Below the pieces are notes generated by a model, which was given only the letters and a program-made list of their open reading frames with translations, was not told the origin of the DNA and searched no databases. From positions 1-21,513 of the IMG/VR virus record IMGVR_UViG_3300005295_000058: a stretch of 21,513 bases of DNA. One strand, given 5' to 3'. This stretch comes from a virus. This document shows, piece after piece, positions 7,077 to 18,275 of this stretch. A program made the position numbers and the translations under genes. Position 1 is the stretch's first letter, and each line of letters opens with the position of its first letter.

Positions 7077-7751
7077 TCACGCAATCAGGAACACTTGTCC
7101 AGCTCGCGCGAGCGCATCAGAACCTAAAGCGATGTCCCATTGTTGGAAGTCGGCACCGTTAGCCGACGACCAATTTGTTCCGGACGCGTTGGCGGCAGTC
7201 TGCGCTTTGTGAGAGGAACCAAGCTGGACGCCGCCGGTGCTTCCTTGTGACAGGTTTTGGTCGCGAGTGAAGCCGCCGGTTCCGCCGACGTTCAGCGTTG
7301 TGGCACCGCGCGAGATGCCAAGAAACGACAACACGACGGCGTCTTGTGCCGCGAACGTCAAGCTCGGGAAGGTCTGCGCAACGTTGGTCGGTGGATTGAT
7401 CAGAAATGACGTGTTGTGGTGAAGGTAGGTCCCGTCTATCACCGCCACGATGCCAATGATGGAATGCGCAGCGGCCAGACTGAAGCTAAACGTCGGTCCG
7501 GTGTCGCCGGCGACCGCTCGTCGCGTGAATAGCTGTGACCGGTAGTTATTCGCGCCGTTGTTGTCGGACCGTTGCGTCGCGACGGCGTCCCAGCCGGACG
7601 GCGGTGCGCTGATCGTCCACGCGCTGTTGTGCTTCCCGTATACGAACGCAACGAACAAGTCGCCGGCTTGCCAGCCGGTTGGCAGGGTCCCGGTAATCGT
7701 CGACGTTCCCGACGACCCGACGCCAGACGATGACCTCCACGATACGGTCAT
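7077..7751 (-). CDS. Beta-sandwich tail/fibre protein
   Basis: A 224-aa, Gly/Ser/Thr-rich protein of a jelly-roll type common among phage minor tail proteins. Key pattern: [52 protein letters not shown] and [13 protein letters not shown], followed by [14 protein letters not shown] and a C-terminal half with [14 protein letters not shown]. This succession (GD-L.....PPSGW......YRSQLFTR.A) matches a domain also visible in the N-terminal third of the collagen-repeat fibre next door. It overlaps that gene by ATGA at 7748-7751. Likely part of the adsorption apparatus, binding sugars or decorating the tail; the role is inferred. Confidence 0.72.
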
Positions 7752-9685
7752 GTCTTGGTGACCTTAAGCGATAGCGTGCATTTCTTGACCGACGTCACCG
7801 AGTCGACGTTGATCCCGATGATGTCGCCGGCCACGATTGCGACCGACGTCCATCCCGACGGCGTTCCCTGTGCACTTGTCGAAGTGGTCAACGTCGGCTT
7901 GGTCCCGCCGCCGACAATCGAGTCACCGACGACCGGCGGCGCGTTGGCGAACGTGTCGCGCCAAATGTCGAAGACGATGGACCCTGATACGTCGGGCAGG
8001 ATCGTCCAACGGTCGATGGTGCACGCGAACGGGATTTCGTAGTAACAAACCAAGCCGGTCGAAATCACCGCGACGCCGGTCCCGACAATGACTTCGATAG
8101 CCGAGACGTCAATTCCTGGCGCACCGGCGGCACCGTCCGCGCCGGCCGGACCTTGTTCGCCCGGTTCGCCTTGCTCGCCCGGTGGCCCCGGCGCGCCGTC
8201 TCGGCCGATGACGCCATCGGCACCGGCGGCACCGGTCGCGCCAGTCGGACCCGGCGGACCAACCGCGCCAGGGTCGCCCGGTGGTCCCTCGGGTCCTGGC
8301 GGTCCGGCCGGCCCAACCGTCCCGCCGCCGAAGCCGCCGGACCCGATTTCCTGTAGCGCGCCCTCAACCGTGTCACTGGTGAAGTAGCCGCCGGCGTCTT
8401 CGATGCTGATGGCGGACGCGTCGTGAGCGTCGGCCGGGTCAGTGACGTGTTCGTCCAGGTTTTCGGCGATGGTGTCGATTTCGGCTTCAATGGTGTCGTG
8501 GGAATGGTCCTGTCCCTGTGACGTGTCCGGTTCGTACAATTCCCACGTAAAGACCCGGCGGACCTCATCGGACCCGTCCAGCTCAAAGTACCGGTATGAC
8601 TCGGTCGTCGACCAAAGGATGTCCAGGTCGTCGGCGGTGAACGATCCGGTCGCGTCGAAGCTGATGGTTCCGAGCGTGACGAACGTGTCGAAGTCGGCGT
8701 CGTTGGTTCCCTTGATCGTATAAGTCCGTCCGCCGGCGTCTTCGGACCCGACCAACAACCTCGAGCGCACGATACGGAACGCTCCGCCAAGGTCGATCCG
8801 AAGAACGTTGGTCCCTTCGATTTCCATATACGTGGCGTCGTCGCCATCGACCGTCAACGGCGCGGCGACGTTCCATTCGACCGGTGTCGGTGTCGCGCCG
8901 ACGTCCAACGCGATGGACCCGGTTTGCGTGCCGGCGTACAGCGCCGTTGTCGTCAACGTCGGCGTATAGGACCCGGTCGTCGTGTCTTGATGGCCAACCC
9001 ACGCAACCGCTCGAGCGCCACCGCGCCGGCTGAATGCGTCGGTGACCAATGCACCTTGTGGCGTTTGCGTCGGGTCGCCGGCATACGTGGCGACCTTGCT
9101 AAAGAACGCCGCCAGAAGCACGGCCGGGTCATCGGTCGGTGTAATCGTCGGACCGACCAACGGTGAAGCGTTGCTTTGGTTGGACAGCTCGTCGCTTTGG
9201 TCGAATGACCCGGCGATTTCGTACAGGATAAGTAGCCGTGCACTTCCGCCGGTACCGGACGACGGAACGTGAACGCCAGTCGGCTCGGCCGCGCCGGCGA
9301 CCTTCGACCATGACGTCAGCTCATCGGAAGCCGATACATTCGCAGACTCGTCCATCGACCAACCGGCACTGTCGATGACCGACACCAACGTTCCCTCGGA
9401 CCAAAGGAAACCGATCAGCGTATTGCCGTTCGTCGGTGCGGTGTCGTAATTGAGCGTGAACGCCGCGCCACCGGAAACCCATGACCCAACCTTGACCTGG
9501 ACAATCCCGCCGCTCGCCGGCGCGCTAACGGTCACGCATTCTTGGTCTTCGGCCCGATCCGGCGGCGGTTCGCCGCCAGGGTCGCAACAATCAATCGGCT
9601 CCTCGCCAGGGTCCAAGCTCGGGTCGCCGCCGAGACCGGACCAAAGCGCGCCAATCGCGTTCTTTCCCTCGCGCGTGATCTTCAC
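7748..9685 (-). CDS. Tail fibre with collagen-like repeat, receptor-binding candidate
   Basis: A 645-aa modular tail fibre. N-terminus about 1-50 is Pro/Gly/Asp-rich; 50-265 resembles the beta-sandwich domain of the neighbouring 224-aa protein; 270-385 looks like a galactose-binding (F5/8 C-type) fold with [16 protein letters not shown] and [12 protein letters not shown]; 419-450 contains the phage-tail motif [20 protein letters not shown]; 458-523 is 22 uninterrupted Gly-X-Y triplets; and 525-645 is a C-terminal head with [20 protein letters not shown] and [20 protein letters not shown], a domain widespread at phage fibre tips. It should trimerise through the collagen stalk and bind the host surface through its C-terminal head. 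The GTG start sits in a GTGA overlap (9682-9685). Confidence 0.85.
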
Positions 9686-11328
9686 GCCAGGGACCCGCCG
9701 ACGATCTTGAGCGTTTCGCCGTTCTGTCCGGTGCCGGCCGGCGTCCGGCCGAAGTACATTGGACCTGTCCAGCCGAGTTGCAAGCTGATGATGTCGTTGG
9801 TCGCCACCGACACGCCGGTCATTTCGATGAGGCTATGACCCGTCCAGCCGGCGAGACCGCCGGACCAACCCGGCACAATCGTTTCAGACTCAATCGGCGT
9901 CCCGTTCTTGGCGACCGACACGGTAATCGTCACGGCACCGCCGACGACGCCAATCAGCGTAATGAACGAACGAATATCAATCGTCCCGGTGCCGAGCATT
10001 TTCCAACCGAGCCACGTTCGGTTCGGCTTGGTGACGACCGGGTCCAAGTACGGCGTGATGAGACCGGTTGTCGGATGCAACGGCCAACCCGGACCCGGAG
10101 TGTCGCCAGGGTTAGCCCAATCGACGTTTCCGGGATTGGCCGGATACGGACCGCCGGACCCTTGCAGCTCGCCGTACACCGGTGCCGGCGGCGGACCCGG
10201 CTCGGACCTGGACAGCTCGAGCGTCAGAACGAACGACGCGTCCGGCTCGTCGGACAGCTCGAGAACCTTCCGCGACAGAACGCGCATGGTCAAATAGTCG
10301 TCGGCGTAGCCGTGCGGCCAGTGCGACACGCGGACCGGAACGCCCATGCCGGGACGAATGAGGTTGACAAGCTCGCGCGGAACGGTCGTCTTGACCGTCG
10401 CCCGGTGTTCCGGCGTTTGAAGCTCGCGGACGTACTTGGATGCGCGGCGTTGCGCGGTCGTCGCTTTCTTGACGTTCTCGGCCGGCATGACCCGGTCCCG
10501 CCGGCCGTAGGTTTCAACGGTGCTGTCCAGGGACGCTGTCACGTAGCCGTTGGCGTACGGGACGACAACCTTGGAATAGATGCGTGACCCGTCGACCAAC
10601 AAGCTCGTTTCTTCCTCGAGACCGATATAGAAGATACCGTTCGGGATGTCGACTTCGGACAGGATGTTGGTCAGCTTGGCGTCCGACTGGTATTCGTCGG
10701 CTTCCGGTGGTCCGTACCAGAGACTGAACGAGCCGTACGGCGTCTCGGTCGTCACGCCGACGTCACCGAAGTACGTCAGAAACCAATTCTTGCCAGGGTC
10801 AGCTTGGTTTCCGCAATCGGTGTACACCGCCGACGCTTGTTGCGTGTTGTAGTCGGTTGCGTCCATATCGGCCGGATCGTCCGACAACAAGTACCGGCTA
10901 TCGTCGATGGCCTCACCTTCATGAGTCGACTCGACCCACGTAATGCGTTCGACATCCGTTTCCTCGGGTCGGTCGTTGTCGGGTCCGGTCATGACCCGAC
11001 GTTCCAGGATCGTGTTCGGGTCCGAGACTTCGACGGTGTAAATGCGCGACACGCCGGCGCGGAAGGTCCCGCGGGAAACCTTGATGTTGTTGACGAACCC
11101 GACAAAGATGAACCGGTTGTCGTTGTCGACGGCCTCGGTTTCTTCGACGGCGTAAATGCGGTGGTTGAAGACTTCCAGGTCGCCGTCCGGGTCGTCGATG
11201 ACGATGGTGTTGATCATCGTCGAACCTTCCTCGGCTTTCTCGCCAAGGTCGGTCACCCACTTGCGCATACGGCCACTGATGTCGACGAGCGTCCCGCCCG
11301 GTTCCTGTAGCCAATGGACGAGGCTCAT
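9682..11328 (-). CDS. Tail-tip/minor tail protein (Tal-like)
   Basis: A 548-aa protein directly downstream of the tape measure, where siphophages encode tail-tip components. The N-terminal 110 residues ([46 protein letters not shown]) and the middle region ([80 protein letters not shown]) follow the beta-rich pattern of gp27-like hub domains. A Pro/Gly linker at about 395-435 is followed by a carbohydrate-binding-like beta domain at 455-548. No separate distal-tail (Dit) gene is found between it and the tape measure, so the N-terminal domain may serve that role. ATG 11328 shares a base with the tape-measure stop. Confidence 0.75.
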
Positions 11329-13340
11329 CAGCCGATGAAATTACCGACCGACGGATTGCCGCCGGCCGATCCGTTAGCCGGCCCGACGCGGTCTTGCGTC
11401 GTAATCGACTTGGTGACTTCGCCGGCGGTCACGTAAACCTTGACGTCGGTCGTCACAATCGGCCGGTTCGCGGCAATCGCGCCGGCGACCTGATAGCCGG
11501 CGGACCGCGATGCTGCCGCGGCGGTGTTGCCGGCGGACGTGGCGGCGCCGGACGTCGATGTTGCCGCGGCTCCGATGGCTTGCGTTTGCGCGGCAAGATC
11601 GGTGGCGATGCGACCTTTCATTCCCTCGACTTCGGTGGTCACTTTCTCGGCCGCGGCAGCTTGAGAGTCGGTGATTGACTGTCCGAGACCTTCGGGACCG
11701 AATACGTTTCCCTTGGCCGTTTCGACTGCGGTAGTCGACCCGCCGGCCAACCCGGCAATTTGCGTCTTCAGGGACGTTTGCATGCCGCGCAGCTTGTCCA
11801 GCGCTTCACCCTGGACAAGCACGTTCAACGGATTGAATTCAAGATCGTGAATACCTTGTTCGACGCCGGACAAGGCACGTTCAAGACCTTCCTTGGACGG
11901 TTGCGACGCGATGAATTGCGCGGTTTGGGTTTGGAGACCGGTCGCTTGCGCGGTCGACGCCGAGCTGATTTGCGTCCGGACGTCGTTGACCGCGGCGACA
12001 AGGCCGATGGCCTCGCCTACCAGAAATAGCTTGCTAAGCGTGCTTAGTCCGGTCTTGGCCGCGCCGGCGACACCGCCGGCCGGAACGCCGGCACCGCCGC
12101 CGACAACCGTCCCGGCGGTGAGGTTGACGACGCCGGCGTTCATGCCAAGAACACCCTTGACGAGACCGCCGGCCAGGGTCCCGACGATGTCACCGAGCGC
12201 GCCACCGGTCAGCTTGTTGAGACCCCATCCGCCGATGACCGCGGCTTGGACCCATGACGGCATTTGCATGAACCAACCGACAAGCGTCCCGGCCGCGTCG
12301 GCGGCGACCATCAGCGTTGCGCCGATGGCGTTGAAGTCGACACCCTCGAGGAATGTGACGAGCGTGTCGGCCGCGCCGCCGAGCTTGACGCCGATCTTGT
12401 CGACGGTGTCCAAGAAACCCTTGTCGCTTAGTTTCTCGGTCAGGAACGTACCAAGCCGCTCGAGCGCCGGCAACGTGGCGCGCGCCAGGACTTGCGATAC
12501 TCCCTCGCCGGCATCCTCGAGCCGACGCATGACCGCTTCGGGACCCTTGCCGGCGGCTTCACCGGCTTTCCCGAATTCCTTGTTCAGCTCGGCCAAGATC
12601 AGCTTTTGCGACGCGACGAGCTTGTTGGCCTTGACGCCGGCCGCGTACCGCTCGGCCGCGGCTTTGTCCGACTTCCTCAGCTGGTTGTAATGCTTGGTTT
12701 CTTCCTTGGAAAGCTGATTGGTTCCCTTCAGGATTTTGATTTGCGCGTCATCGAAGCTCACGCCAGCTTTCTTGAGCGCGGTGAACCCGGTAGCAGGGTC
12801 GTTCAGTGCCTTGCCGAGCTGAATGGCGGTTCCCTTCAGGTCGACGGCTTCGACGTTGCCGCCGGCCATCGCCACCGCCATGTCCAACGCCGCTTTGGTC
12901 GCTTGAGGGAAGACCGTCGACCCGATGTTGGTGAAGGTCAACAGAAGGTTCTCACCGTCTTGGATGACCTTGTCGTCAACGGTGGTTACGTTCTCCAGGT
13001 TTTCGGCGTACTCGCGCACTTGCGCGGCCGATACTTTGGCCTTCCCTCCAGTCGACGCGATGACCGCGGCCGTTTGTTCCTGTGAGCGGTTCAGGTCCGC
13101 CAGGGAACGAACGCCAAGCGCAACCGCGCCGGCCAACGCGACGCCGCCGGCAACCGCGATCTTGCCGATGTTGCGCGCGGCGTTGTTGAGACCCTTGCCG
13201 ATACCCTGGCCGACTTTGAAGCTCGTCGACTCGAGCCGGCCAAGCGACTTCATCGCTTTGTTTGCGGTCGGTGTGAAATTGTCCTTCAGCTCGAGTGACG
13301 AAACGAGCTTGGCGGTTTCAGCGATTCCGGCCACCGGCAA
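11328..13340 (-). CDS. Tail tape measure protein
   Basis: A 670-aa, Ala/Gly/Lys-rich protein typical of tape measure proteins that set tail length. N-terminal helices LKDNFTPTANKAMKSLGRLE and VGQGIGKGLNNAARNIGKIA lead into a hydrophobic stretch at about 61-78 (IAVAGGVALAGAVALGVRSL), then the conserved phage-tail block with QEQTAAVIASTGGKAK and EYAENLENVTTVDD, coiled helices at 210-290, and Ala-rich hydrophobic segments near 340-400. Translation starts at TTG 13340 or GTG 13334; GAGG lies 4 and 10 bases before them. The start overlaps the end of the -1 frameshift product, as usual for this gene pair. At about 1.5 angstrom per residue it predicts a tail near 100 nm. Confidence 0.9.
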   Translation of the reverse strand: MPVAGIAETAKLVSSLELKDNFTPTANKAMKSLGRLESTSFKVGQGIGKGLNNAARNIGKIAVAGGVALAGAVALGVRSLADLNRSQEQTAAVIASTGGKAKVSAAQVREYAENLENVTTVDDKVIQDGENLLLTFTNIGSTVFPQATKAALDMAVAMAGGNVEAVDLKGTAIQLGKALNDPATGFTALKKAGVSFDDAQIKILKGTNQLSKEETKHYNQLRKSDKAAAERYAAGVKANKLVASQKLILAELNKEFGKAGEAAGKGPEAVMRRLEDAGEGVSQVLARATLPALERLGTFLTEKLSDKGFLDTVDKIGVKLGGAADTLVTFLEGVDFNAIGATLMVAADAAGTLVGWFMQMPSWVQAAVIGGWGLNKLTGGALGDIVGTLAGGLVKGVLGMNAGVVNLTAGTVVGGGAGVPAGGVAGAAKTGLSTLSKLFLVGEAIGLVAAVNDVRTQISSASTAQATGLQTQTAQFIASQPSKEGLERALSGVEQGIHDLEFNPLNVLVQGEALDKLRGMQTSLKTQIAGLAGGSTTAVETAKGNVFGPEGLGQSITDSQAAAAEKVTTEVEGMKGRIATDLAAQTQAIGAAATSTSGAATSAGNTAAAASRSAGYQVAGAIAANRPIVTTDVKVYVTAGEVTKSITTQDRVGPANGSAGGNPSVGNFIG

Positions 13341-13946
13341 CGGACCTCAGCTTGGATACCTTCATGTCTTGGATGGCAACGTGCCGGCGTTGGGTCGCCC
13401 CGAAGCCGACTTCGGCTATGAGCTGTAGCCGCCACCGTGCGATGCCGATATCGGTTCGATGACGTCCGTCCGGGAAGTGGTAATCAAGGATGGCTTCGAC
13501 GGCTTCCGGCGCGCGCGCGACGAACCACTCGTCCGAGACGTCAAGTCGGTCGTCGGCGTACGCGGCGATGACGTCGACGCCGCTTTCACTAAAGGGTCAA
13601 TCACCGCCGCGTAATAGGTCTCGACCGCGTCGTCCGAAACCTTCATCGCCTCGGTGACGTTGTCGTCCATGAATTGGCGGACGGCTCGGCGGCTCACCGG
13701 GACGAGCTTCCCTTTAGCGTCGACGAGTGACCAGGATTCGATGCCAACCATCAGGAACGCTTCCGCCATGGCCGCCATCATTTCGGCCTCGCCGGCGTCC
13801 GGGTCTTGCGTGCGAACGACGACGATGGTGTTCCGGCACCAAAGCGCGGACCGGAAGTCCAGCTTCGGCCGAAGCTTGATCGTGTCATGTTCGTGCCGCG
13901 GCGACCCGTCCGGCTTCGGCGGACAGACGCACGCGATGACGGTCAT
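13318..13946 (-). CDS. Frameshifted tail assembly chaperone (GT-like fusion)
   Basis: The long product of a tail assembly chaperone pair, made by -1 slippage. Residues 1-119 are shared with the unshifted protein; translation then moves back one base at CCCTTTA (13590-13596) and continues as SESGVDVIAAYADDRLDVSD, EWFVARAPEAVEAILDYHFP and so on to a stop at 13318-13320, giving about 209 aa. The second part is well-composed protein, unlike the Ser/Thr/Arg-rich zero-frame tail. It has no start codon of its own for most of its length, and a TGA in this frame lies immediately before the heptamer, so it can only be made by frameshifting. It overlaps the tape-measure start by 23 bases, as in lambda G/GT-type modules. 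Confidence 0.82.
13416..13946 (-). CDS. Tail assembly chaperone, unshifted (G-like)
   Basis: Tail assembly chaperone found between the tail tube and tape measure genes, thought to coat the tape measure before tube polymerisation. The folded part is residues 1-119: N-terminal strand region TVIACVCPPK, IKLRPKLDFRSALWCRNTIV, then helices EAEMMAAMAEAFLMVGIESW, RRAVRQFMDDNVTEAMKVSD and TYYAAVIDPL. After the slippery heptamer the zero frame continues to 176 aa with an Arg/Ser/Thr-rich tail that looks unconstrained, presumably just the default end. ATG 13946 overlaps the tail tube stop (ATGA). It is the major product if frameshifting is a minority event. Confidence 0.82.
   Translation of the reverse strand: MTVIACVCPPKPDGSPRHEHDTIKLRPKLDFRSALWCRNTIVVVRTQDPDAGEAEMMAAMAEAFLMVGIESWSLVDAKGKLVPVSRRAVRQFMDDNVTEAMKVSDDAVETYYAAVIDPLVKAASTSSPRTPTTDLTSRTSGSSRARRKPSKPSLITTSRTDVIEPISASHGGGYSS
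13562..13596 (-). promoter_or_regulatory. Programmed -1 frameshift signal: slippery CCCTTTA plus stem-loop
   Basis: On the minus strand C-CCT-TTA (13596-13590) fits X-XXY-YYZ in the frame of the chaperone gene. After a 6-base spacer (GTGAAA), GCGGCG (13583-13578) can pair with CGCCGC (13567-13562) across a 10-base loop, the usual stimulator position. The -1 frame has a TGA (13597-13599) directly before the heptamer and stays open to 13318. All of this is seen in the sequence; slippage efficiency is unknown. Confidence 0.82.
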
Positions 13947-15007
13947 AGAAGGGTCTCGTCGATGGTGTTGACAACGTCGGTCGTGAAGACTTGTTCCAGG
14001 TCTTCGACGTCGTAGAACGCGTGCGCAGTCAGAACGATGACCGTGTTGCCGCCAACCTCACCCTCGGTCCGCGTGTAGTACCGCATCGGCGCGGTGAATT
14101 GCCACGAATACGGCGTCGACGGCGCGTTGGCGATTTCGGTCGACGTAAAGACCATTTGGATATAGCGATTGACCGAGCTGTCCGACATCCATGCGTCCGA
14201 CTCGGACCCGATGCCGACGGTATCGGCGGTCTTGGCGAACGTGCATTCCAGCTCAATGGACCTGGACGCCAAGCCGTACGCGTCGATGTCAAACAATTGT
14301 TCGCCGTTGGCGTACCGCTTCAGGTCCCATTCATTGGTAACCCGGAGCGTGAACGCGTGAAGCGCGTCCGAGACCTGTGACGTGGCAAGGTCGTCCGGAT
14401 CGGACGCAATGTTAATCAGCCCATCCTTGAGATACACCATGATGTCGGTTGTCGACACGTCCAAGCCGGCCGTTGGCACCGCCGGACTGTCCGGCGAGTC
14501 GGTCGAACCGCTGGACGCCATCGTCCCGAAACGCCACGCCAGGGTTGCCGTCAACGGTCCGTCCGGGTCTCGAGTGCCGGTGATTTCCAACGACTCGAGC
14601 AAACCGTCGCCGAGCTGATACCAGTCGGTCAGAACGTCGTCACCGAATTCGTACGTGAACACGTCCGGGTCCGTCGGCGTCAACGACGCCGGCGTCCAAT
14701 TCCACGCTTCACTGTCGCCGGTTGTCGTCGGCGGTGTCGTCCCGGCAAGCGCGGCCGCGAACATGATCGGAAGGTTGTTGTACTTGACGGCAGGGTCGTC
14801 CAGGGACGCCGTGTAGTCGCCGGCGCCGCGGTACGGTGGCGAAACCGGGTCGATGGCCCCAACGTCAGCGTCCGGGTCCGTCCAATTCAATTCGACTTCC
14901 GGTACGCCGCTGAACGGATACGCACGCTTGGCCGCGATCTTTGTTCCCATCGCGGACTGCATGCCGAATTGGTGTTTGCGCAGTCGGACTAAACCCTGAA
15001 CCGGCAT
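13943..15007 (-). CDS. Major tail (tube) protein
   Basis: A 354-aa protein in the tail-tube position, directly before the assembly chaperones. N-terminus MPVQGLVRLRKHQFGMQSAM then GTKIAAKRAYPFSGVPEVEL resembles actinophage tube proteins that begin by listing an offset to the inner tube strand. The middle has the beta-rich repeats of the tube fold (FTYEFGDDVLTDWYQLGDGL, LESLEITGTRDPDGPLTATL, RSIELECTFAKT, RYIQMVFTSTE). It is longer than minimal tube proteins, so it may carry an extra outward domain. ATG 15007 has AAGGAACCAACCG as ribosome site, very like the one proposed for the internal capsid start. Should be among the most abundant virion proteins. Confidence 0.82.
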   Translation of the reverse strand: MPVQGLVRLRKHQFGMQSAMGTKIAAKRAYPFSGVPEVELNWTDPDADVGAIDPVSPPYRGAGDYTASLDDPAVKYNNLPIMFAAALAGTTPPTTTGDSEAWNWTPASLTPTDPDVFTYEFGDDVLTDWYQLGDGLLESLEITGTRDPDGPLTATLAWRFGTMASSGSTDSPDSPAVPTAGLDVSTTDIMVYLKDGLINIASDPDDLATSQVSDALHAFTLRVTNEWDLKRYANGEQLFDIDAYGLASRSIELECTFAKTADTVGIGSESDAWMSDSSVNRYIQMVFTSTEIANAPSTPYSWQFTAPMRYYTRTEGEVGGNTVIVLTAHAFYDVEDLEQVFTTDVVNTIDETLL

Positions 15008-16670: not shown

Positions 16671-17729
16671 TCAGACAGCCCACGTCGTGAACGCGTCCGG
16701 ATACAGCGGCGCGTACCAGTCGATGACGACAAGCGCCACGTCTCGGCCGGCCTTGGACGGAACGTCGACCTGAAGCGTGAACGCGCCGTCTTCAGCCCAC
16801 GCGAAGCCGCGGGACGGGCCGATGATGACATCGGTCGCGGTGGCGTCCAGCGCCGGAACGTGAACCGGCCGAAGACCGCTGATGGTCCCGCCGGCACCGG
16901 CCGAAACGGTGATGTTCGACCCGATGTTGGAATACAGCGGCATGTTGGTCCCGTCGGCCTTGGCGTCGATGAACAACACCATTGCATCCGACGACATCCA
17001 AAGCGTGTCCGGCCGAAGACCGACCGTCTGCGCATTGGCCCATGCCTCACCGATCAGAAGCGATTCCGGGTCAAGCGTCCCGGTTCCCGGAGTGACACCG
17101 GACGCCAGAAGCGCGGCGATTGCCTCGGCTTCGGCGTTCTGTGACACCGCTTCGGCCAGAAGCTGAAGATACAGGTCAAGGTATGACGGGTCCGACCGCT
17201 TCAGAAGCTGAATGCTGATGTCGCCACCGCCGGCAATCGTCACGGCGTCGAAGCCGCTTGCGACGATGGACGTTTCGGTCGACTCGATGTCGTCTTTTTC
17301 GTTGACCTGAATGCCGGCCGTTGGACGCGTGACGAGCGTCGGGACGTTCAGGGTCATGCCGGACGCCGGCGTGTTGAGACGACGGGTCGTTCCAAGGAAC
17401 GGCCGCGACGCGTCGATAATCCCGATCAGCTCGGACAGGAACGCTTCCGGAACGACGCCAAGATTGTCGGACGTGATCAGGTCCGCCATGACGCGCATTT
17501 GCTCGGCCGGAATGACCTCACCGGTAAGCGCGCCAAGCACGGTCTTGAACCATCGACCCTTGTCGATGTCCGGCTTGCCGTCCGGACGCGGAATGACGAT
17601 GTCGCGTCGCGTGTTTTCCTCGATGGCCGCGATCCGGTCACCGAGCACGGCAAACGCCGTGTCGATGCTCCGGGTCAGCGGTGCAAGGTCGACCGGCTCG
17701 GCCGGCGATGTCTGGACTTCCTCGGCCAC
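16671..17729 (-). CDS. Nested in-frame start for free major capsid protein
   Basis: Inside the protease-capsid gene, AGAGGAACCAAACGTG (17729 is the G of GTG) places an AGAGG ribosome site 7-8 bases before an in-frame GTG at residue 183. The product, VAEEVQTSPAEPVDLAPLTR onward, would be 352 aa, starting with a scaffold-like delta segment and running through the HK97 fold. The ribosome site is nearly identical to that of the tail tube gene (AGGAACCAA), which also has to be expressed at high level. This would supply excess capsid over protease, as lambda C/Nu3 does for scaffold. Internal initiation is inferred from sequence, not shown. Confidence 0.65.
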   Translation of the reverse strand: MAEEVQTSPAEPVDLAPLTRSIDTAFAVLGDRIAAIEENTRRDIVIPRPDGKPDIDKGRWFKTVLGALTGEVIPAEQMRVMADLITSDNLGVVPEAFLSELIGIIDASRPFLGTTRRLNTPASGMTLNVPTLVTRPTAGIQVNEKDDIESTETSIVASGFDAVTIAGGGDISIQLLKRSDPSYLDLYLQLLAEAVSQNAEAEAIAALLASGVTPGTGTLDPESLLIGEAWANAQTVGLRPDTLWMSSDAMVLFIDAKADGTNMPLYSNIGSNITVSAGAGGTISGLRPVHVPALDATATDVIIGPSRGFAWAEDGAFTLQVDVPSKAGRDVALVVIDWYAPLYPDAFTTWAV

Positions 17730-18275
17730 GTTTGGTTCCTCTCTTTCCTCGGATCGCACGGCAAGAATCGCCGCCATATCACCGTATGCGGGTCGCGTCG
17801 TCATTGACGCGCCAGTGAGCTTTACGCGGTTGTGAACCTTGACCCGCCGGCCACCGCGCTTGACGGTTGTCGTCCCGCCAGGGACCTCTTGGAATTCGAC
17901 CGACACGCCGCGTACGATCTTGTCTTCGGCCAGTGCCAAAAGATCGTCGCCGGACGCGGTGCGGCCAACCCGGAACGCAACGTGCGGCCCGTCGTCGGCT
18001 TCCCAAACCTTGGTTGACCGACCGACCGCGTGACGGGTCAGCTTCGGTTCGCCCGTCTGTCCGATGCCGATATGCGCTTCATGCTCGAGACCCATCAGAA
18101 GTACGGCGTCGTCTGGCGTTCCGACGGTCGACCCTGGCGCGAATTCCTCGGGACCCGCGATGGTTTCAATCATCGTGTTCCACGGCAGAAGCCGGACTTC
18201 GATTTCCCGCTTGGCCGCGTCGCGGACGATGATGTCCGACGGCTCGACGTCGAACATGATCATTTCGTCAGTCAT
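16671..18275 (-). CDS. Fused prohead protease and HK97-type major capsid protein
   Basis: A 534-aa fusion. Residues 1-175 are an HK97 U35-type prohead serine protease: MFDVEPSDIIVRDAAKREIE, VRLLPWNTMI, LLMGLEHEAHIGIGQ with H65, then FRVGRTASGDDLLALAEDKI and VRGVSVEFQEV with S125, the usual His/Ser arrangement. A linker with many Glu leads to the capsid, about 200-534: SELIGIIDASRPFLGTTRRL, VTIAGGGDISIQLLKRSDPS, YLDLYLQLLAEAVSQ, ASGVTPGTGTLDP, DTLWMSSDAMVLFIDA and a C-terminal ALVVIDWYAPLYPDA, typical of the HK97 fold. ATG 18275 overlaps the preceding gene by 8 bases. A strong ribosome site and in-frame GTG at residue 183 suggest the capsid is also made alone. Confidence 0.88.
   Translation of the reverse strand: MTDEMIMFDVEPSDIIVRDAAKREIEVRLLPWNTMIETIAGPEEFAPGSTVGTPDDAVLLMGLEHEAHIGIGQTGEPKLTRHAVGRSTKVWEADDGPHVAFRVGRTASGDDLLALAEDKIVRGVSVEFQEVPGGTTTVKRGGRRVKVHNRVKLTGASMTTRPAYGDMAAILAVRSEEREEPNVAEEVQTSPAEPVDLAPLTRSIDTAFAVLGDRIAAIEENTRRDIVIPRPDGKPDIDKGRWFKTVLGALTGEVIPAEQMRVMADLITSDNLGVVPEAFLSELIGIIDASRPFLGTTRRLNTPASGMTLNVPTLVTRPTAGIQVNEKDDIESTETSIVASGFDAVTIAGGGDISIQLLKRSDPSYLDLYLQLLAEAVSQNAEAEAIAALLASGVTPGTGTLDPESLLIGEAWANAQTVGLRPDTLWMSSDAMVLFIDAKADGTNMPLYSNIGSNITVSAGAGGTISGLRPVHVPALDATATDVIIGPSRGFAWAEDGAFTLQVDVPSKAGRDVALVVIDWYAPLYPDAFTTWAV

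Follow-up and report, generated by a model that had tools for sequence, protein, structure and literature searches.

G/GT frameshifting in the tail assembly chaperone genes of phages is long established. The locus described here raises the question of what is kept by selection downstream of the slip site: the -1 frame extension, the unshifted end of the chaperone, or both. The window that we analysed is the whole of a 21,513-base IMG/VR virus record, and its genes, including all features given below, lie on the minus strand. An earlier note on this stretch had proposed a -1 frameshift in the tail chaperone gene, and its coordinates were borne out: the heptamer CCCTTTA (13596-13590) reads C CCT TTA in the frame of G, i.e., in the correct X XXY YYZ phase, it is followed by a 6-nt spacer, and the -1 ORF runs to 13318. 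The protein-coding look of the unshifted frame downstream of the heptamer had been overlooked.

G, the common N-terminal part of the chaperone, starts with the ATG at 13946 and comprises 119 codons including the TTA of the heptamer (13590..13946). T, the C-terminal part that the -1 frame contributes to the GT fusion, has 90 codons after the heptamer (13321..13590) and a TGA stop (13320-13318); the -1 frame is open from 13596, which makes 92 codons with CCC TTT included. In the unshifted frame, G continues into a Ser/Thr/Pro-rich, basic C-terminal tail of 57 codons (13419..13589) with zero Cys and zero Trp, which is closed by a TAG (13418-13416), and the overlap of G tail and T occupies 13416..13590. 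The gene directly 3′ of G/T encodes the tape measure protein (11328..13334; phrog_27166, tail length tape measure, E 1.3e-15); its probable start, GTG 13334, was picked by comparison with relatives and overlaps the end of T. The ORF upstream of G (13943..15007) is placed as the major tail protein by its position and had no match in PHROG or Pfam, and neither a tRNA nor an Rfam family was found in the source contig. Taken as a whole, the locus is best explained, with high confidence, as encoding the tail assembly chaperone of a siphovirus-like phage from an uncultured lineage. As no relatives were present in cultured phages or in 84,980 prokaryote genomes, no host was assigned.

On its own, CCCTTTA is common enough, with 2 matches in the 21.5 kb when both strands are counted. 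Scanning IMG/VR with the T and G sequences yielded 50 further contigs, and CCCTTT[A/G] is located exactly at the G/T codon junction in 51/51 contigs (the source contig and the 50 others), among which the nucleotide identity of the T region goes down to 51%. The final search patterns were T codons 30-50, so that the heptamer was outside the bait. The last base of the heptamer varies: among the 50 contigs tabulated, 24 carry CCCTTTA, which the earlier note had named as the exact heptamer, and 26 carry CCCTTTG, as does additionally L017, and the exact heptamer was therefore too narrow a definition. In the 15 contigs checked, the product P(CCT|Pro) x P(TTR|Leu) was approximately 0.000-0.016 per contig. 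Because the same junction bears the heptamer in all 50 other contigs and its codons are rare there, the heptamer is beyond chance. Comparison with homologous loci had been suggested as a check, and all homologues that were found have an open -1 ORF and keep the heptamer. The TGA that directly precedes the heptamer, which had been regarded as making the case unusually clean, does not belong to the signal: it is present in 1/50 tabulated loci, namely the source contig, and several relatives have a -1 frame that is open for >100 codons upstream of the heptamer. From these alignments, a programmed -1 frameshift of the lambda G/GT type at this locus is nearly certain.

Past the heptamer, the unshifted frame is open for 45-76 codons in 50/50 tabulated contigs. 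When 15 contigs were tested singly, this openness was not significant, and high-GC codon usage could suffice to account for it; the signal emerged only after 40 lineages (below 85% nucleotide identity to one another) were pooled and the feature was widened to Trp, Cys and NTG codons. Compared to a codon null built for each contig from 3-10 kb of its flanking sequence, the unshifted frame reaches 45 codons in 40/40 lineages (23.9 expected), and early stops within these 45 codons were found in 0/40 lineages (about 16 expected). The statistics were picked after the first 15 sequences had been inspected and, as the lineages are related, the z values below are descriptive; neither they nor the product of probabilities (2.8e-11) can be taken as strict p-values.

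Wherever a T codon ends in TG, the unshifted frame reads Trp, Cys or a stop. In the full tails of the 40 lineages, each delimited by the unshifted stop of that lineage, NTG codons for Leu/Val occur 4 times (124.3 expected), i.e., they make up 4/350 Leu/Val codons compared to roughly one third in the other genes of these contigs, whereas after the unshifted stop they occur 95 times (66.4 expected). This depletion extends beyond the positions at which a stop would arise, the next codon being irrelevant. Trp and Cys together number 4 in the unshifted frame of the full tails (113 expected, z -13.4) and 2 when tails are capped at 45 codons (77.8 expected, z -12.8). With the same cap, there are 0 stops (20.1 expected) and 110 hydrophobic residues (268 expected), and the unshifted frame is enriched in Ser/Thr/Pro/Ala relative to the T-synonymous null. 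In the controls, G and three tape-measure segments submitted to the 45-codon test, |z| did not exceed 2.6. Synonymous identity in the T frame is 1.19-1.54 times the expectation at codons 3-40, with its highest value right after the heptamer (T3-10, ratio 1.54), and about 1.0 from codon 41; the constraint thus spans about 120 nt and ceases near the unshifted stop. The ratio of 1.0 in this downstream part suggests that silent sites retain few traces of common descent. Mild deviations are also seen in the third frame of the overlap (Trp+Cys z -3.9, hydrophobic z -6.6, Ser/Thr/Pro/Ala z 11.7), which implies that part of the unshifted-frame signal is a general codon shift, and our reading of the third-frame values is that they are a side effect of that shift. 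Because the frame is open, Trp and Cys are depleted, the constraint ends near the stop and the controls are normal, the overlap is very probably dual-coding, specifying both the G tail and T. Taken together, the comparison shows the conservation of the heptamer, the T reading frame and the constraint on the unshifted frame.

From these data we infer that slippage takes place, which of its products predominates, and what G, GT and the tail do, as follows. Ribosomes would translate G as far as C CCT TTA, where a minority would slip back by one base, exchanging CCT for CCC and TTA for TTT, and would finish GT, a 209-residue fusion with the helical T domain as its C-terminus. Most ribosomes would stay unshifted for 57 more codons and produce the 176-residue G with its basic Ser/Thr/Pro-rich tail, G being in excess of GT. 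If the lambda model applies here as well, coating of the tape measure protein would fall to G, and recruitment of the major tail protein to GT, the rarer product. Selection appears to act in both frames: the protein sequence of T is kept, while silent choices in T keep the G tail long, hydrophilic and devoid of Trp, Cys and stops. Tails have a median of 57 residues, with 43% Ser+Thr, 12% Pro, no Cys and a mean net charge of +4.5 (range +1 to +12), a composition that points to disorder. The chances that the G tail has a specific function are about even. We attach the same even chances to the fuller proposal, in which the frameshift would pick between two functional C-termini of the chaperone that overlap and evolve jointly. 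On G this would be a disordered brush, basic and rich in Ser, Thr and Pro, that takes part in tail assembly in its own right; on GT it would be a folded helical domain that serves as recruiter. The brush might, for example, keep the tape-measure complex soluble or delay the polymerisation of the tail tube.

The same observations could be accounted for if the frameshift were of the lambda type and the unshifted tail a tolerated by-product, kept soluble and harmless but itself idle. When regional codon usage is taken as the null, position-specific ratios are only 1.07-1.20, and because they are this small the composition of the tail, and not its exact sequence, seems to be selected. A mostly compositional constraint of this kind is what a by-product would show, as is the depletion of hydrophobic residues, Trp and Cys with enrichment of Ser, Thr, Pro and Ala. 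However, early stops are avoided too, although an early stop would eliminate a harmless by-product, and this avoidance argues against an idle tail. We therefore consider the by-product explanation the less probable one, while it is the strongest of the alternatives.

The constraint on silent sites could also reflect an RNA stimulator of the -1 frameshift, a stem-loop or pseudoknot, instead of a coded tail. The peak of the constraint right after the heptamer is compatible with such an element. The earlier note had pointed to a stem, GCGGCG (13583-13578) and CGCCGC (13567-13562) separated by 10 nt (13562..13583), which is present as printed in the source contig; across the relatives, however, its register is not conserved, with 60% of cells paired and no pair changed on both sides, and this putative stem-loop is unsupported as a conserved element. 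An alternative hairpin (columns 16-23/29-36) is paired in 78% of cells, with a single compensatory pair that comes from one clade, and a scan of all 6-bp helices, over all registers, against the codon null gave a best p of 0.048, which is not compelling; the lineages are, moreover, related. Downstream folding energies were compared to those of sequences encoding the same T protein with the codon usage of the same contig. The mean z in the 40 lineages was -0.09, 0.04 and -0.12 in three windows, and it was likewise about 0 in the first 15 sequences, although a few contigs fold well. These values leave a family-wide stimulator unsupported; individual contigs may have their own. In addition, the constraint extends over about 120 nt and ends near the unshifted stop, and NTG codons are avoided regardless of the codon that follows. 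An RNA element in place of a coded tail is thus unlikely, and dual coding of the overlap remains our preferred reading.

Two further features were noted around the heptamer. In the relatives, the T codon that comes after CCC TTT (columns 7-9 after CCCTTT) nearly always ends in T, and as a consequence the first unshifted codon past the heptamer is mostly Val or Leu; this may provide a 3′ context for the slip. GAG GCG GTG is frequent 10-14 nt upstream of the heptamer in a subset of relatives and resembles a weak Shine-Dalgarno enhancer. An upstream Shine-Dalgarno-like enhancer was not retained: such sequences occur in 18/40 lineages (12.9 expected), which is weak, and the source contig lacks one.

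T is conserved as a protein in the 50 other contigs, with 43-65% identity in 49 loci, and its third codon positions are the most variable downstream. Its model is mostly helical, with a long C-terminal helix (pLDDT 86), and gave no structural match in the PDB. T closely overlaps both G and the tape measure gene, an arrangement that would also suit T as an independent gene, translated from a start codon of its own or by reinitiation. This explanation is very improbable: no start codon lies near the beginning of T in the source contig, in agreement with the earlier claim that the second ORF has no usable start, and conservation of the protein sets in at the heptamer, in which the rare codons do not vary. 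A sequencing error or a pseudogene splitting one ORF is hardly credible and is refuted by conservation, since 51 contigs, which come from many metagenomes, share the arrangement and both parts are under purifying selection.

G was aligned in 15 sequences, in which the relatives are 30-54% identical to the G of the source contig, an alignment too variable for profile searching. The AlphaFold2 model of its 119 residues has a pLDDT of 92. In VIA-align, 2ob9, the tail assembly chaperone of HK97, came third with a Z of 4.3, which is too low to settle homology, and comparison with BFVD returned many "tail assembly chaperone" matches, with probabilities of up to 1.00 and E values no better than 5e-3. 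The profile phrog_313 ("Tail assembly chaperone") was matched by 2/15 G members (best E 0.0025), while no Pfam match to G was obtained and the sequence search of solved structures found nothing. These models suggest a weak resemblance of G to the HK97 chaperone in predicted fold, and the assignment of G to this family was made because of its position, the frameshift and the weak fold match. The start of G (13946-13880) displays a C-x-C ... H ... D pattern in which C6, C8, H18 and D21 are invariant in the 15 sequences; in this tail chaperone these residues might form a metal-binding knuckle.

The founding case of this type of frameshift is lambda gpG/gpGT (PMC5009743). We compared the length of the unshifted tail in three other phages: lambda, HK97 and Biscayne. 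As here, the chaperone gene of lambda precedes the tape measure gene and has an X XXY YYZ heptamer and a -1 C-terminal extension; however, its heptamer is GGGAAAG instead of CCCTTT[A/G], and its unshifted frame goes on for 5 codons past it, compared to 45-76 codons with evidence of dual coding at this locus. The HK97 gp13/gp14 chaperone likewise uses a -1 frameshift, but its unshifted frame stops about 5 codons past the slippery stretch, and no sequence match to it was detected. As the unshifted products of lambda and HK97 end this soon after the slip, attention went to T. In the Orlajensenviridae and the Microbacterium cluster EE phages (e.g., Biscayne), the portal protein is ~30% identical (over 73-77% of the query in the best hits), the gene order is similar, a capsid-protease fusion is present and the tail assembly chaperone is annotated as joined. 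In contrast, the probable slip site of Biscayne is GGGAAAC, and about 11 codons lead from it to the unshifted stop. G, T and the upstream tail proteins of the source contig had no match in the phage collection. In the G/T genes of Escherichia phage 9g, the slippery stretch starts with CCCUUU as it does here, whereas the shift is reported as -2, on CCCUUUUUUU (PMC4276943).

Thus the slip itself is known, and what is new is a long unshifted tail that is, to judge from its sequence, apparently dual-coded; no report of such a doubly used stretch was found in the searchable open-access literature. Comparative sequence here puts the unshifted side of the frameshift decision under selection, and the avoidance of Trp, Cys and stops in an unshifted frame provides a general test for which product of a frameshift matters. 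If the overlap is dual-coded, the G tail is testable, because stops that are silent in T can end it early.

Two other ORFs of the window were noted. The ORF at 16671-18275 (534 aa) weakly matches both prohead protease and capsid families and resembles the capsid-protease fusion of Orlajensenviridae. The ORF at 7748-9685 (645 aa), downstream of the tail genes, contains collagen-like Gly-Pro-Pro repeats, which occur in some phage tail fibres.
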